NCBI GenBank assembly: GCA_018266075.1
Contig: JAFEBB010000005.1
Span: 124,001 to 188,000 of the forward strand
Reading direction: 5' to 3'
DNA: 64,000 nt
Source of the DNA: Deltaproteobacteria bacterium
GTDB lineage: Bacteria > Myxococcota > Myxococcia > Myxococcales > SZAS-1
Shown here: piece after piece, positions 11,828-63,026 of the stretch
How the letters are laid out: every line of letters begins with the position of its first letter
How positions within the stretch are numbered: the stretch's first letter is position 1
Program-made: the position numbers and the translations under genes
The notes under the pieces: model-generated
Told to the model about the DNA's origin: nothing
What the model saw: only the letters and a program-made list of their open reading frames with translations
The model's database searches: none

Positions 11828-12468
11828 TCCGCGGACTTCGACTTCTTGCCGTGGTGCCCGCCGCCGTGCCTGCCGCCGGACGGCGGGGGAGCGGCAGCGG
11901 CAGCGGCGTCGTCACCGGCGGCGCCCGCGTTGGGATCGTCCTTGGGATCGAGCTTCTCGACCGCGGGGACCAGGTTGCCGTCGGCGTCGTACTGGGGCTT
12001 GGCCGCGGGCTCCTTCTTCTCGGGCTCGGCGGACATGTCGAGCGGGTGCTCCTCGTCGAAGCCCTTCACCACCTGCGGCTCGGCGTTGGCCTCTTCGGCC
12101 TTCTTCTTCTCGGCCTCTTCCTTGTCCTTCTTGCGCTGCTCCTTCACCTCGCCGGTGCGCGCGGTCTCGGCCTTGGTGTCGTCCATCGAGCGGTGGCGCT
12201 GTGCCGCGGCGTAGTCGTGGTTGTTGGTGCCGTGCTTCTCGAGCACCTGGTCGTCGGCCTCCTGCATCTCCTTCTGCTTGGCGTGCCGCGCCTCCATCGA
12301 GTCGTCGTCCTTGTACTTCTCCTCGATCTTGGCGTGCGCCTCGTCGCGGTCGGCGTCGATGTTCGCCTTCTCGTCGGTGGTCAGCTCCTTCTTGCCGTCG
12401 AACTCGTCGGCGAAGGCAGGGGCGGCGGCGAACATCACGACAGCGAGGGCAAGGGAACGCAGGCGCAT
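11821..12468 (-). CDS. Secreted highly charged protein of unknown function
   Basis: A 215-residue protein with a clear signal peptide (MRLRSLALAVVMFAAAPAFA, cleavage after AFA). The mature part is dominated by Lys, Glu, Asp and Ala and is probably one long helix or disordered (for example GEVKEQRKKDKEEAEKKKAE). It ends in an alanine stretch and a Gly/His/Lys-rich tail (GGRHGGGHHGKKSKS) that might bind metal. No domain family is recognisable. The ribosome binding site GGAGC precedes the ATG. The low complexity is not matched elsewhere in the window except in the histone-like tail at 54 kb. Confidence 0.75.
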   Translation of the reverse strand: MRLRSLALAVVMFAAAPAFADEFDGKKELTTDEKANIDADRDEAHAKIEEKYKDDDSMEARHAKQKEMQEADDQVLEKHGTNNHDYAAAQRHRSMDDTKAETARTGEVKEQRKKDKEEAEKKKAEEANAEPQVVKGFDEEHPLDMSAEPEKKEPAAKPQYDADGNLVPAVEKLDPKDDPNAGAAGDDAAAAAAPPPSGGRHGGGHHGKKSKSADY

Positions 12469-13639: not shown

Positions 13640-14671
13640 GTGAAGCTCTCCGACTTCGATTTCGAGCTGCCCGAGTCGCAGATCGCGCAGCAGCCGCTCG
13701 CCCAGCGCGACGCGTCGCGCTTGCTCGTGCTCGACCGGAGCAAGCCCGAGCTGCAGCACCGCGCCTTCGCGGAGATCGGCGAGTACCTGCGGCCCGGCGA
13801 CCTGCTCGTGGCCAACGACGCCAAGGTGATTCCGGCTCGGCTGCGCGGGACGAAGGTCGCCACCGGCGGCAAGGCCGAGCTGCTGCTCTGCGAAGCGCTC
13901 GATGAGCAGCAGCTGCGTTGGCGAGCGCTGGGGCAGGCGTCGAAGCCGTTGCGTCCAGGTCAACGCCTGCGCTTCGAAGGCGGGCTCGAGGCCGAGATCG
14001 AAGCTCCGGCAGGCGAGGGCGCGTACGACGTCCGCTTGTTCGCCGACGACATCCCATCCGCGATTGCGAAGGCAGGCGAGATCCCGCTCCCGCCGTACAT
14101 TCGCCGGACGCCAGGCGCCGATGACCTCGCACGCTACCAAACGGTCTACGCCGCTCGCGGCACCGCCGCCGCTGCGCCGACGGCCGGCTTGCATTTCACG
14201 CCAGCGCTCCTCGAGAAGCTGAAGGCGCAGGGGATTGGCTTCGCAAAGCTGACGCTGAACGTCGGCCCGGGGACGTTCCTGCCGGTGCGCACCGAGAACA
14301 TCCTCGAGCACCGCATGCACGCCGAGCGCTTCGAGATCCCCGAGGACACCGCGCGCGCCATCGACGAGACGCGCCGCGCGGGCAAGCGCGTCATCGCCGT
14401 CGGAACGACGAGCTTGCGCGCGATGGAGGCCGCGGCCACCGACGCGCGTACCGTCCGTGCGGGCACCGCGAGCGCGCAGCTCTTCATCTATCCCGGCTAC
14501 ACCTTCAAGGTGATCGACGCGCTCATCACCAACTTCCACTTGCCCAAGTCGACGCTGCTCATGCTCGTGGCCGCGCTCGCGGGTCGGGAGCGGATCCTCG
14601 CGGCATATTCGGAAGCCGTCGCGCGCGGGTATCGCTTCTTCTCCTACGGCGACGCGATGCTCATCTGCTGA
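13640..14671 (+). CDS. queA: S-adenosylmethionine:tRNA ribosyltransferase-isomerase QueA
   Basis: A 343-residue enzyme that transfers and isomerises the ribose of SAM onto 7-aminomethyl-7-deazaguanine in tRNA, making epoxyqueuosine. The N-terminus (LSDFDFELPESQIAQQPLAQRDASRLLVLDR) and internal motifs (GTAAAAPTAGLHFTPALLEKL, LNVGPGTFLPVRTE, GTTSLRAMEAA, LITNFHLPKSTLLMLVAALAGRE) are diagnostic. The length is normal. The GTG start is 27 bases after SpoIID. A QueD-like gene lies at 56 kb, but no other queuosine gene is near. Confidence 0.96.
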   Translation: MKLSDFDFELPESQIAQQPLAQRDASRLLVLDRSKPELQHRAFAEIGEYLRPGDLLVANDAKVIPARLRGTKVATGGKAELLLCEALDEQQLRWRALGQASKPLRPGQRLRFEGGLEAEIEAPAGEGAYDVRLFADDIPSAIAKAGEIPLPPYIRRTPGADDLARYQTVYAARGTAAAAPTAGLHFTPALLEKLKAQGIGFAKLTLNVGPGTFLPVRTENILEHRMHAERFEIPEDTARAIDETRRAGKRVIAVGTTSLRAMEAAATDARTVRAGTASAQLFIYPGYTFKVIDALITNFHLPKSTLLMLVAALAGRERILAAYSEAVARGYRFFSYGDAMLIC

Positions 14672-32388: not shown

Positions 32389-33615
32389 ATGGTCGCGCTC
32401 TGGGACACCTTGATGCTGGCCTTCCGCGCCCTCAGCGCCAGCAAGCTGCGCTCGGCGCTCACCCTGCTGGGCATCATCATCGGCGTGACCACGGTCGTGG
32501 CGATGATGGCGCTCATCGAGGGCCTGCGGAACAAGGTCGACGAGCAGCTCGCGGGCCTGGGCGCCGGCGTGTTCCAGGTGCAGAAGTGGCCGCACGGTCC
32601 CAATTCGAAGGACTGGCACATCTTCGCCAAGCGCAAGGACCTGACCATGGCCGACGCGGCGCTCCTGCGCACGCTGCCGAGCGTGGCCCAGGTGGGCTGC
32701 GAGGCCTGGGAGGGCGCGAAGAAGGTGTCGAGCCACTTCGCCAGCACCTCGGCGAACCAGGTGATCGTGGGCGCCACGCCCGAGTTCCTGGAGAACAACG
32801 GCCTCAACCTCGCCCACGGCCGCTTCCTCACCGACGACGACATCCTCGACGAGCGCCCGGTGGCCGTCATCGGCTACGACGTGGTGGACACGCTCTTCCC
32901 CGGGCAGGAGCCGGTCGGCCAGGAGATCATCATGGCCGGCGCGGTGTACCGCGTGGTGGGCGTGTTCGCGCGGCAGGGCGCGGGGCTCTTCGGCGACTCG
33001 CAGGACAACATCGTCGCGCTGCCCATCACCCAGTTCTTCCTGCACTACGGCAAGGCGCGCTCGCTCAACATCACCATCAAGGCCAAGGACCCGAAGCTCA
33101 TGTCCGTGGCGCAAGATGAAGTGGTGGGCGCGCTTCGTCGCCGCAGGCAGGTGGCGCCGACCGCCGAGAACGACTTCGAGATGTTCAACAACGAGACGGC
33201 CGCCGAGACCTTCAACAACCTCTCCAAGACCATCTCCGCGGCCACGGTGGGCGTATGCCTGTTGAGCCTGCTCGTGGGCGGCATCGGCGTGCTCAACATC
33301 ATGCTCGTGTCGGTGAGCGAGCGGACCAGCGAGATTGGCGTGCGCAAGGCGCTGGGGGCGCGCAAGCGCCGCATCCTCATGCAGTTCACGGTGGAGGCCA
33401 TCGTGCTCTCGCTGCTGGGCGGCGCCATCGGCGTGCTGCTCGGCGTGGGCATCTCCGTGGGCGTGCGCGAGCTGACCCAGATCCCCACCGAGGTGCCGAT
33501 CTGGGCGGTGGGGCTCGGGCTTGGAGTGAGCACGCTCACCGGGCTCATCTTCGGCATCTACCCGGCGTCGCGCGCCGCGCGGCTGGATCCCGCGCTGGCC
33601 ATGCGGGCGAGCTGA
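32389..33615 (+). CDS. MacB-type FtsX-fold ABC permease (second)
   Basis: A 408-residue permease of the same topology, starting 3 bases after the first. The N-terminal helix is ALTLLGIIIGVTTVVAMMALI; the C-terminal helices begin at about residue 285 (VGVCLLSLLVGGIGVLNIMLVSV) with the hallmark SERTSEIGVRKALGARKRRIL. It is the last gene of the efflux operon. Its final codons already lie in phase with the 21-bp repeat array that follows. Confidence 0.92.
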   Translation: MVALWDTLMLAFRALSASKLRSALTLLGIIIGVTTVVAMMALIEGLRNKVDEQLAGLGAGVFQVQKWPHGPNSKDWHIFAKRKDLTMADAALLRTLPSVAQVGCEAWEGAKKVSSHFASTSANQVIVGATPEFLENNGLNLAHGRFLTDDDILDERPVAVIGYDVVDTLFPGQEPVGQEIIMAGAVYRVVGVFARQGAGLFGDSQDNIVALPITQFFLHYGKARSLNITIKAKDPKLMSVAQDEVVGALRRRRQVAPTAENDFEMFNNETAAETFNNLSKTISAATVGVCLLSLLVGGIGVLNIMLVSVSERTSEIGVRKALGARKRRILMQFTVEAIVLSLLGGAIGVLLGVGISVGVRELTQIPTEVPIWAVGLGLGVSTLTGLIFGIYPASRAARLDPALAMRAS

Positions 33616-34038
33616 GCTCGGGCATCGGCTTGCTGCACGACCAGGACGATCTCGCTCCTAACCCGAATGGACTGCGGCTCGGCCCTCGTGGCGTGCGCGC
33701 ACGTTCACGGTGTCGCGACGCCCGCCAAACGGGCCAGCGCCGGTGCCCATCTGGCGTCCTGGCCGCGCAAACGAGGAGGCGGCTCTCCCGAGCGGGCATG
33801 CCTCGAAGCCCATTGGGCGAACGCGCTTCGCCCGCTGGCGCGCGCGTGAGCCCGGGCGGCGGGCCCGCGGTTCCAATTGGCTGGGCTGCGGGCACAGAGG
33901 GAGCACGGAGCAGCCCAGTTGGCATGCGCGCGAGCCAAGCGGGCTGACCTCTCCGCCAGCGAGGCTTGGGCCCGAGCCCATGGGCGCTTCGACCAGGCCC
34001 TGCGTGCTGCCGCCTGAGCACTCCGGGCCAGGGGGGAT
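33598..34038. repeat. 21-bp-period degenerate tandem array with dyad cores
   Basis: Writing the sequence in rows of 21 from 33598 gives 21 consecutive rows that align without a single insertion or deletion. The consensus row starts GCC at columns 1-3 and has GG at columns 9-10; the best rows contain an 11-bp dyad such as GCCCATTGGGC (33808) or GCCCAGTTGGC (33913). Rows are strongly diverged. The array fills the 422-bp gap between the convergent permease and HD-domain genes, which holds no credible gene. A 21-bp period equals two DNA turns and also seven codons: a minus-strand frame open down to 33658 reads as a heptapeptide repeat with P-L-G/P-M-G at a fixed position. Confidence 0.8.
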
Positions 34039-35357
34039 CAGACGCCCATCGACACCGACGTCCGGCCCTTGAGCAGCTTGATGGGCTGGATGGCCATCAT
34101 GTTCATGAAGACCTTGAGCAGCTCGGGGTCGAACTTGTTGCGCATCTCGCTCCACATGAGCATCAGCGCGATCTGCGGGCCGTAGGCGTCGCGGTAGGGG
34201 CGCCGTGAGGTGAGCGCGTCGTAGGTGCAGGCGATGGCGATGATGCGCGAGTAGAGCGCGAGCTGCGCCTTCGGGATGATCATCGTGATGTTGCCGCGCG
34301 AGTCCTTCACGGCCGCGCCGAACTCCACCTTGCACTCCTGGGTCACCACCAGGCGGGTGAGGGTGGTGCGGGTGAGCGCGCGCTCGCGGAGGATGCCCGC
34401 CACGGCGAGCAGCGGCGCGCGGTTCACGTGCGTCTTCTCTTCCTTGGTGAGCGCGCCCTTCTTCTGCACCATATCCAGCGGGATGAAGGCCATGCCCGCG
34501 TCGTGGAAGAGCGCGGTGATGCCCAGCTCGCGCAGCGCTTCCTTCTGCAGGCCCACTTCCTGGCCGAGCACGATGCTGGTGAGCGCCACGTTCACCTGGT
34601 GGAAGGCGAGATAGTCGTCGTCGTCCTTGAGCGTGCTCATGCCCAGGAAGTGGGCGCGCTGCTCGGCAGCGATGTCGACGAAGTCTTGAATCACGCGCGC
34701 GGCCTTGTTGCCCGAGAGCACCTGGCCGGTCTGGCGCACGCTCTTGATGTACTCGCGGATGTAGACGACGCCGCGGCCGTACACCGTCATCGCGTACTTC
34801 TTGCGGTCGACCTTTTGATCGTCGGGGTTCTCGAGGTCGTCCTTGTCGAGCTTCTCTTTTATCTTGGCCCACCGCGTGAGCCGCATGTTGAGGAGCTTGC
34901 GGCCCTGCACGCCTTCTTCGGTGGCGTTGTCCTTCTGCTCCTTCGAGAAGATCCAGACGAAGTTCTTGAGCTCCTCCACGTTGGTGGAGCGGGTGAGGGT
35001 GATGGCGCCGACGTCCTTGGAGCGCATCTCCTGGAGCAGCTCCTTCACGTTGTCGAGGGAGTTGGGGTCCACCTTCACCAGCATGTTGTTCAGGTAGAAG
35101 GCGTTCTTGAGGCCCTGGAGCTCGAGCTTGCCGTCCTTGGCGATGATGGCGTTCGCCGTCTCCACCATGCTGGTGAGCGGCTTCTGGAAGATGGCGTTGT
35201 CGGGGTCGTAGAGCTTCACCGAGCGCACGAGCATGTACAGGTTGGCCACCAGGTTGCGGCCCATCGCCTGCAGCTTTTCGTTGTAGGCACGGCCGAGCTC
35301 GTCCGTGTTCTCACGGTCGGTGGTCTCGACGTTTCCAATTTTCAGGTTGTCGGCCAT
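34038..35357 (-). CDS. HD-domain (HD-GYP-like) protein with N-terminal LY-type module
   Basis: A 439-residue cytoplasmic protein. The C-terminal half has an HD-GYP-like fold: FHQVNVALTSIVLGQEVGL, the metal pair in ITALFHDAGMAF, THVNRAPLL and YDALTSRRPYRDAYGP. The GYP triad and the HHE region are missing, so cyclic-di-GMP hydrolysis is doubtful. The N-terminal 150 residues (SVKLYDPDNAIFQKPLTSMVETANAI...) resemble the N-terminus of the upstream HEAT protein, which suggests a shared module. It sits 3 bases after that gene in a two-gene operon. Confidence 0.82.
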   Translation of the reverse strand: MADNLKIGNVETTDRENTDELGRAYNEKLQAMGRNLVANLYMLVRSVKLYDPDNAIFQKPLTSMVETANAIIAKDGKLELQGLKNAFYLNNMLVKVDPNSLDNVKELLQEMRSKDVGAITLTRSTNVEELKNFVWIFSKEQKDNATEEGVQGRKLLNMRLTRWAKIKEKLDKDDLENPDDQKVDRKKYAMTVYGRGVVYIREYIKSVRQTGQVLSGNKAARVIQDFVDIAAEQRAHFLGMSTLKDDDDYLAFHQVNVALTSIVLGQEVGLQKEALRELGITALFHDAGMAFIPLDMVQKKGALTKEEKTHVNRAPLLAVAGILRERALTRTTLTRLVVTQECKVEFGAAVKDSRGNITMIIPKAQLALYSRIIAIACTYDALTSRRPYRDAYGPQIALMLMWSEMRNKFDPELLKVFMNMMAIQPIKLLKGRTSVSMGV

Positions 35358-61229: not shown

Positions 61230-62405
61230 CTAGTTTGTAATTGTCGCCGTCGTGTAGCTGTATTCGTTATTGTTCCAATTTGCGTTTCCATTCGTGGTGC
61301 CGCAGAGACCAACCGAATAAGTCCCTGCTGCCAAACCCGAGAGGACGCTGGTGAGCGAGAAGGGCAGCCGCGTGTTCTGCGCGACGCGCTCGCCGAAGAG
61401 CCCGCCGCCGCTGGTAAACAGTGTCGTGCCGCTCACGTAACAAATATCGATATCGAGTGAGGTCGCGCCCCCTGAAGCCGTCGACCCGAGGTTCGCAACC
61501 GAGGTGACGAGAATGTTCTGGCCGGCGGCGATCGTCACTGACACGGAGGCCGCAAGCATTCGGTACGTTGTGTCGGCAGGGAGCGCGGACCCAGGGGCAT
61601 TGAAGACGAAGCCCTGCGCATTCGTCGTGATGGCCACGCCAGCGGCACCCGTTGCGCCCTTGGCTCCCGCCGGACCCGTGGCGCCGGTGGCGCCTGTCGG
61701 ACCGGCTGGACCTGCGACTCCCTGTGCGCCCTGTGGCCCCGCCGCGCCCGCCGGACCCTGCGCGCCAGCAGGCCCGGCGGCACCCTGGGCGCCTTGCGCA
61801 CCTTGCGGACCGGTCGGACCTGCGGGGCCCTGGGCACCTTGCGCGCCCTGCGGACCGGTCGGACCTGCGGGGCCCTGTGCACCCGATGCGCCCGTCGGAC
61901 CCGCGGGACCCGTCGGTCCGGTGGGGCCGCGCAGCCCCGACGACGGTCCCACCCAGTTGCCGTTTGAGTCGATGACCTGGGTGCCGTTCACGGTGACGCT
62001 GGTGGGGTTGATGTCGCCGGTGGCGTCGTTGGCCTTGAGCGCGTAGGGCACGCTGGTGATGGCTTCTCGAGGCGTCATCTCCGCGTCGGTGCCCACCGCG
62101 ATGCCCAGGTATCGAATCGTCCCGTCGAAGGCGCTCGCCGGCAGCGCGGTCACGCTGCCCAACTGCACCGCGAAGTAGCCCTGGTTCACCTGGATGGTCT
62201 GCTGCTCCGTCCAGAGCGCGCTGCCGCCGGCCGGACCGGCGTAGAGCGCGAAGTGCAGGATCACGGCGCCCGTCACCGGGTTGCCGCTGGAATCGACGAG
62301 CCGGCCCTCCTCGGTGAGCGTGTCGGGCACGGCGGCGCGCGCGAGGCGAGGCGCGGCGAGGGTTGCCGCCACCAGGGCCATGGCCAGCGTCAGTTTGCGG
62401 AGCAT
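61230..62405 (-). CDS. Collagen-like surface protein
   Basis: A 391-residue exported protein. The signal peptide is [25 protein letters not shown] globular head of about 135 residues ([26 protein letters not shown] onward) precedes 33 uninterrupted Gly-X-Y triplets (about residues 157-256), rich in GPT, GPA and GAQ, and a C-terminal beta domain of about 130 residues follows. The layout is that of trimeric bacterial collagen-like proteins and phage tail fibres, where the C-terminal domain may act as trimerisation or binding head. The triplet region contains a 45-bp direct repeat. No anchor motif is seen. Confidence 0.9.
61804..61893 (-). repeat. 45-bp tandem repeat in the collagen-like gene
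   Basis: Two 45-bp units (61804-61848 and 61849-61893), identical over the first 29 bases and near-identical thereafter, encode [15 protein letters not shown] twice. A candidate for length variation of the collagen stalk by slipped recombination. Confidence 0.75.
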
Positions 62406-62423: not shown

Positions 62424-63026
62424 TCAGGGCGCGCCAGGCGGGACCACGCCGAGCTGCATGCGAAAGTTGGTGGACTGCATCACCGGCCGGGAGCCGTCGC
62501 TGGTGCGGACCTGGAGGCTGTGGTTCGCGCTCGACATCGCCGTCGCGCCTGCCACTTCGCCAGTCTGGTTCGCGTCGCCAGCGCCGGTGGTGCTCGTCGT
62601 GCCTGTGGTGCTGCTGGTGCTGCCCGTCGACCCTGCGGCCGTGGTGGAGCCGGAGCTTCCCGCGCTGGTGGACGTCGACGCGGAGCTGCCCGCGCTGGTC
62701 GACGTCGACGCGGAGCTGCCTGCGCTGGTCGACGCCGTGGTCGACCCGTGCGAGCCGCCGTTGCTGCTGTTCGTCGATCCGGCGGTGCCGGTGGAGCCAG
62801 CGGCCGTCGTCGAGCCCGCGCTGCCCGACGCGCTGGTGCCCTCGATGCTCCCGCCCGTCGAGCCCGTGCCGGTGGTGCTGCCGCCCGAATGGCCGCCGCT
62901 GGTGGAGGAGATGAGCTGGCCAGAGGTGGTGGTCGTCGTCTTCTGGGGCGGGCTCTGGGTGAGCTTGTTGCCGCTGCAACCCGCAAGCACGGCCACCAGG
63001 AGGATCGTGGCGCCGCGCAGAGACAT
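62424..63026 (-). CDS. Ser/Thr/Gly-rich lipoprotein
   Basis: A 200-residue lipoprotein (MSLRGATILLVAVLAGC, good lipobox). About 120 residues consist almost only of Ser, Thr, Gly and Ala (for example SGSAGSTTAAGSTGTAGSTN), ending in a short tail with SDGSRPVMQSTNFRMQLGVVPPG. It is a flexible, possibly glycosylated surface stalk, lying 18 bases upstream of the collagen-like gene on the same strand. The low-complexity part is built from DNA repeats. Confidence 0.82.
   Translation of the reverse strand: MSLRGATILLVAVLAGCSGNKLTQSPPQKTTTTTSGQLISSTSGGHSGGSTTGTGSTGGSIEGTSASGSAGSTTAAGSTGTAGSTNSSNGGSHGSTTASTSAGSSASTSTSAGSSASTSTSAGSSGSTTAAGSTGSTSSTTGTTSTTGAGDANQTGEVAGATAMSSANHSLQVRTSDGSRPVMQSTNFRMQLGVVPPGAP
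62661..62736 (-). repeat. 30-bp tandem repeat in the Ser/Thr-rich lipoprotein
   Basis: Two and a half units of 30 bp (62661-62690, 62691-62720, 62721-62736), nearly identical, encode AGSSASTSTS. Period 30 equals ten codons, so length changes would keep the frame. Confidence 0.75.

Follow-up and report, generated by a model that had tools for sequence, protein, structure and literature searches.

The window analysed here, a 64,000-nucleotide stretch of contig C5 of a Deltaproteobacteria (Myxococcota) genome, carries a 420-base intergenic tandem array between a permease gene and an HD-domain gene. The features of this locus, in window coordinates, are as follows.

32389–33615, plus strand: permease gene (ABC-type, MacB-like by sequence), whose 3′ end overlaps the first row of the array as initially annotated
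33619–34038, no strand assigned: tandem array of twenty 21-bp units, the opening two of them weak, with the consensus GCC[CA]AN[TC][GT]GGC-N10 and free of indels
33661–34038, no strand assigned: array core, 18 units in a single unbroken phase (four-array profile, score 93.0)
33808–33818, no strand assigned: exact 11-bp dyad GCCCATTGGGC in the unit at 33808
33913–33965, no strand assigned: run of three perfect GCC-N5-GGC dyads at 21-bp steps; no other triple in the genome is free of mismatches
34038–35357, minus strand: HD_5-domain gene, convergent to the permease gene and conserved beside a 617-aa gene in relatives

The convergent intergenic setting agrees with the initial annotation, which had aligned 21 gap-free rows of 21 bases from position 33598. 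That alignment holds, but its first row (33598–33618) does not belong to the array: it consists mostly of the last codons of the permease gene, whose stop codon lies at 33613–33615, an overlap the annotation had itself recorded. The array proper begins at 33619–33661.

Autocorrelation against shuffled controls, which had been proposed as a check, revealed a clear 21-bp comb. Match rates at lags 21, 42, 63, 84, 105 and 126 were 0.41, 0.44, 0.45, 0.40, 0.43 and 0.41, with a mean of 0.422 against 0.302 ± 0.0095 in 1000 dinucleotide shuffles (maximum 0.331), and these lags (in the order 63, 42, 105, 126, 21, 84) were the six highest among lags 1–129. A coding-corrected statistic over 864 kb of the same genome gave 0.183 for the window array and 0.241 for an array at C1:213609, with everything else at or below 0.094, indicating that the window feature is both real and rare. 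A period-21 signal at 11941–12031, picked up in the initial scan, proved to be a coding region. TRF with default scoring did not report the window array, because its units are too diverged. Elsewhere in the window lie a strong tandem array with periods of 9, 18 and 45 bp at 61620–61916, probably a coding collagen-like (Gly-x-y) stretch, and a 30-bp tandem repeat at 62651–62734 (2.8 copies, 94%, unit CGGAGCTGCCCGCGCTGGTCGACGTCGACG).

Column counts support the description of GCC at positions 1–3 and GG at positions 9–10 as the strongest columns, with C at 2 in 15/20 units, C at 3 in 16/20, G at 9 in 17/20 and G at 10 in 18/20. The conserved columns are G1, C2, C3, A5, G9, G10 and C11, with C15 in addition, and the 11-bp dyad that had been pointed out coincides with the consensus GCC[CA]A-N-[TC][GT]GGC. 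Only about 60% of the array's letters agree with the column consensus; the phase is nonetheless free of indels over the 18 strong units from 33661 to 34038, or from 33619 if both weak opening units are included. Dyad symmetry of the unit reached 0.68, compared with 0.42 for permuted columns (p = 0.002).

Two explanations had been offered for this exact phase, a coding repeat of heptapeptides or a helically phased set of protein sites. The first appeals to the equivalence of 21 bp with seven codons and to one minus-strand frame that stays open across 18 units. The frame does exist, but one stop-free frame of this length is ordinary at 73% GC with a 21-bp period. Stops interrupt five of the six frames of the window array and most frames of its sister arrays. 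Among 40 gene-linked 21-bp arrays, the frame of the linked gene and the two others were open in 25, 23 and 24, showing no frame preference; periods of 22, 43 and 65 bp in related arrays are incompatible with heptapeptides yet preserve the two-turn geometry, and the arrays are intergenic in all orientations. We conclude that the array is non-coding and regard a heptapeptide repeat as barely credible. The second explanation fares better, since the two-turn period, the dyad-symmetric units and the conserved outer arms described below all accord with a set of putative binding sites.

Eight relatives retain the HD gene and, behind it, the 617-aa gene, yet the array is absent from the orthologous gap behind the HD gene in all eight, and no permease was found at that locus in any of them. 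An aperiodic gap in relatives had been named as evidence against the array; the finding argues against conservation at the locus, not against the array itself, and it marks the array as a dispersed element rather than a fixed feature of this gap. The idea of a function specific to this locus, involving the permease or the HD gene, was therefore dropped. The window copy is a solo, gene-less, dispersed and diverged array inside a rearranged gap.

The initial annotation had proposed a profile search for further arrays, and this search, using the triple-dyad pattern and a gap-free profile built from four arrays, yielded seven others in the same genome with the same phase and half-site motif (C3:163124, C10:21044, C48:8534, C62:33163, C102:15814, C4:94243 and C113:36). 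They are intergenic wherever their flanks were read. With the exception of the C10/C102 pair, they have only phase and motif in common, both strands alike. Across 75 units from four arrays, the pattern is GCC[CA]AN[TC][GT]GGC followed by ten variable bases, with the information mostly in the dyad arms. The arrays at C10 and C102 are unit-by-unit paralogues (72–77%), and between them mismatches affect 13/84 sites of the outer GCC/GGC arms compared with 63/210 in the other columns (p = 0.012), a modest yet direct indication that the arms are constrained. Because at least seven other arrays have this phase and half-site motif, the window copy is either a trans-bound outlier of the GCC-N5-GGC group or a slowly decaying copy of it.

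Downstream of the C10 array is a small gene (G000:C10:20259-20819) that belongs to a multi-copy family. Copies number 12 in the same genome (two partial, at contig ends), 28 in G008, at least 21 in G019, 12 in G014 and two in G003, and public Myxococcota-type MAGs contributed 15 loci, at least one of them common with G019; a single 4.6-Mb genome thus holds 28 copies. The family is present in 5/145 genomes of the order, and a 195-genome sample of the phylum contained no additional family-bearing genome. Own-genome loci lie on C28 (G000:C28), C5 (C5:57252), C109, C75, C85, C10, C73, C8 and C13 (for example L069:3244-3951 and L092:4488-5135). The window's part of contig C5 contains no family gene, the nearest being the copy at C5:57252, 100 kb away.

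Common to the family members are a region of about 150 residues containing the motif TRxxRxTxGxxQ and a disordered tail. Pfam, NCBIfam and PHROGs gave only chance-level matches and a PDB sequence search found no relative, leaving this a small-protein family without annotation in the libraries searched. AlphaFold2 models predict a helix, a beta hairpin, a long helix and a basic C-terminal helix. Fold comparison of these models against the PDB returned only prefoldin-like long helices (Z ≤ 5.4) and no RHH or HTH adaptor or other recognised DNA-binding fold, matches so weak that they exclude nothing. The array at C1:213609 (L204:13609-13840 and 13835-14380) is of a second type with the dyad AGACGTCT; the gene downstream of it encodes FG-GAP-like repeats, and the gene immediately before it is a distant family relative that lacks TRxxRxTxGxxQ. 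Two further homologues occur at C15:30955 and C55:48392.

A 21- or 22-bp array was found in 41/67 upstream but 0/69 downstream regions of family genes at a single threshold, with one duplicate locus removed; copies within a genome are not independent, and the array and promoter thresholds were chosen after first looks at the data, with controls at identical thresholds. TRF applied to 2 kb on each side likewise gave upstream periods of 21/42/63/84/126, 22/44/66, 43 and 65 bp, and mostly short-period, coding-type repeats downstream. Upstream arrays occur in every examined genome that carries the family and typically end 130–350 bp before the gene. In one of two G008 genes that are 99% identical, about 460 bp of extra sequence separates gene and array (L164:2648-3111 compared with L165).

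The link to the family is frequent, not universal. Seven more intergenic arrays, in convergent, divergent and other settings, came to light in 400 kb of G008 sequence away from the family loci (L234:3445-3822, L236:9514-10017, L239:13567-13923, L244:1-378, L248:2059-2520, L249:18985-19446 and L252:6322-6636), and no family gene was found in the stretches holding them. These arrays indicate that the class is wider than the gene link, and on their account we abandoned the assumption that every array is tied to the gene family. Arrays without a nearby family gene run at about 18 per Mb in G008, and several adjoin lipoprotein-like genes. The family-free genomes G033 and G011 showed none in 200 kb each; to date, arrays are known only from family-carrying genomes (the window's own and G008), a distribution that rests on little sequence.

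Collectively, these data define an undescribed class of intergenic tandem arrays in some Myxococcota, with a two-turn period, a dyad-symmetric unit and array-specific sequence. The window array has the period (21 bp), the symmetric unit profile and the intergenic position. The consensus is in most cases particular to a single array (for example GTCACGGTGACGGGCCGGCCC, TCCCCGAGGGATCGCCGACGA and ACCCGCCGGGGAATCGCGATC), and two-turn geometry is the sole feature common to arrays of 21, 22, 43 and 65 bp. Tandem repeats of other kinds in these genomes span many different periods. Units often combine an 11-bp odd with a 10-bp even palindrome, and 42/58 arrays exceeded column permutations in dyad symmetry at p < 0.05, with the best-axis search applied to the permutations too.

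Dyad symmetry maintained despite array-specific sequences could also reflect selection for self-complementarity, the arrays folding as a series of hairpins or one long hairpin in RNA, single-stranded DNA or a cruciform. Compensatory changes within units are indeed in excess in a few arrays (C62, z 5.4; C109, z 3.8; L239, z 3.1). Pooled over 58 arrays, however, covariation showed no excess (z −1.8, or −0.5 with G-U pairs), six arrays were significantly negative, and the window array itself gave z −0.01. This absence fits separately read half-sites better than hairpin pairing; hairpins, moreover, need no helical period, and Rfam produced no gathering-level match, only one chance-level match outside the array core. 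RNA hairpins were rejected because two within-unit covariation tests gave no pooled support, and a fold-back element of any kind appears very unlikely.

Sequence turnover is far quicker in the arrays than in the linked protein. In G008, a pair of copies whose genes are 99% identical has arrays that match at only 81%, and at 72% protein identity the arrays of paralogues are down to background similarity. An apparent slow co-evolution of array and protein (Mantel r 0.24) was discarded, as it seems to rest on a few near-identical pairs. Such turnover would be expected of a functionless satellite, in which slippage and unequal exchange generate and homogenise the units, mutation sets their symmetry and period, and the window copy is a decaying fossil; its strongly decayed units and the lack of positional conservation in relatives point the same way. 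Ordinary slippage, however, neither fixes a two-turn period nor makes palindromic units, as the many periods of co-resident repeats illustrate. Nor does it account for the strong bias to the upstream side of one gene family, for the conservation of outer dyad arms between paralogous arrays, or for high divergence with zero indels across 18–20 units. We therefore consider a functionless origin distinctly unlikely.

Many family members have a sigma-54-type promoter about 80–160 bp before the start. A TGGC[AC]C-N5-[CG]TGC[TA]-type site at −81 to −102 was recovered by leader alignment in 8/9 own-genome family genes tested, and sites scoring at least 15 occur upstream of 21/68 family copies, compared with 3/68 on the reverse strand and 2/68 downstream, over a background of about 0.02 per kb per strand. 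RpoN is encoded in every one of the five genomes, alongside 24–52 enhancer-binding proteins. Roughly nine family loci have a gene for such a protein at a distance of up to about 2.5 kb, an apparent and modest enrichment in raw counts. Examples beside family genes or arrays are L088:1266-2900 (own C85), L092:6099-7001 (own C109), L164:3340-5100, L167:2-1813, L141:124-1332, L146:2541-5000 and L102:1893-2942, with the array sometimes between the two genes.

These observations raise the possibility that the gene-linked arrays are oversized upstream activating sequences for enhancer-binding proteins, whose dimers occupy dyads upstream of a −24/−12 promoter, with the window copy a displaced or orphaned enhancer. 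Enhancer-binding proteins do bind tandem dyads (PMC4894688; PMC9765219): GcsR recognises three 18-bp tandem palindromic sites that form a sigma-54 upstream activating sequence (PMC4894688), and Nla28 of Myxococcus xanthus is a sigma-54 enhancer-binding protein with upstream activating sequences of its own (PMC9765219). Like those sites, many gene-linked arrays place palindromic tandem sites upstream of a TGGCAC-N5-TTGC-type promoter. Unlike them, the arrays comprise 12–28 sites rather than about three, differ in sequence from array to array and, when solo, are promoterless. Most family copies in G008 and the MAGs lack a sigma-54 promoter, yet many have arrays, and the arrays of G008 appear more numerous than plausible enhancer-binding specificities. 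No sigma-54 site scoring at least 15 lies within 600 bp of the window array on either strand, and the solo arrays in general have no convincing site nearby, apart from one isolated match at C62; solo arrays as enhancers of their neighbours were accordingly rejected. Given also how modest the enrichment of activator genes is, we judge the enhancer explanation unlikely.

Comparison with other systems places the arrays in a wider context. The ParR/parC, TubR/tubC and StbA/stbDR centromeres consist of helically phased tandem short repeats upstream of a gene for a small DNA-binding protein. As in parC-type centromeres, sequence differs between the arrays while spacing is kept. The arrays differ in being chromosomal and multi-copy, in their 21-bp units with two dyads, in lacking a motor gene and sometimes any linked gene, and in a linked protein family without a known fold or family match; beside the window array, where the neighbours are the permease and HD-domain genes, there is no partition motor gene of the ParM, TubZ or ParA type. 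Plasmid iterons are direct repeats of about two helical turns set in a row beside a gene. Direct two-turn repeats are common to both, but the arrays have palindromic units and no Rep protein, the same two neighbours of the window array include no replication initiator, and neither array nor linked protein has a phage or plasmid match at the DNA or protein level (72,556 plasmid records). REP/BIME elements have one sequence per genome and no strict period; like them the arrays are dispersed, intergenic, palindromic and present in tens of copies, but they are array-specific in sequence and fixed in period.

To our knowledge, the arrays fit no known repeat class, whether CRISPR, REP/BIME, iterons, centromeres or coding repeats, and open-licence PMC text yielded no description of them. 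Since no known array type fits on the defining features, we rate the class as new. In mode of action, it would most resemble parC-type centromeres and tandem enhancer sites.

We propose, at roughly even probability, that the window stretch is a solo member of this phased dyad-array class and acts as a multi-site platform for a dimeric DNA-binding protein. Each array would offer some 10–30 dyad-symmetric units at two-helical-turn spacing, and a dimer filling successive dyads on one face of the helix could build a phased nucleoprotein patch, through which the array may influence the chromosome or gene expression. In gene-linked copies, the array lies about 150–900 bp upstream of the small-protein gene. 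The product of that gene, a predicted long-helix protein with the conserved basic motif TRxxRxTxGxxQ, is the first candidate binder, and enhancer-binding proteins are the second. The platform is supported by the dyad arms, which carry most of the conservation in the window type and whose outer positions change half as often as other columns between C10 and C102. The main objection to a simple sequence-specific reader is the fast turnover of arrays relative to linked proteins, a pace not easily reconciled with a single slowly evolving protein of that kind.

That the arrays outpace the linked protein suggests a more open reading, in which phase and symmetry matter most. What is read would then be the period and the symmetry and not any fixed sequence: each genome would contain tens of array-specific two-turn satellites (for the window's own genome, a count extrapolated from 864 kb and the profile search), organised by a lineage-specific multi-copy protein family much as fast-evolving centromeric satellites are by their binders. 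We advance this possibility tentatively, as something short of probable.

The arrays thus keep their period and palindromy, change sequence freely and prefer the front of one unannotated multi-copy family. If nothing reads them, they would point to a mutational process that generates palindromes at intervals of two turns; if they are read by proteins, they would provide a model, in bacteria, of rapidly evolving repeat DNA and the proteins that bind it.
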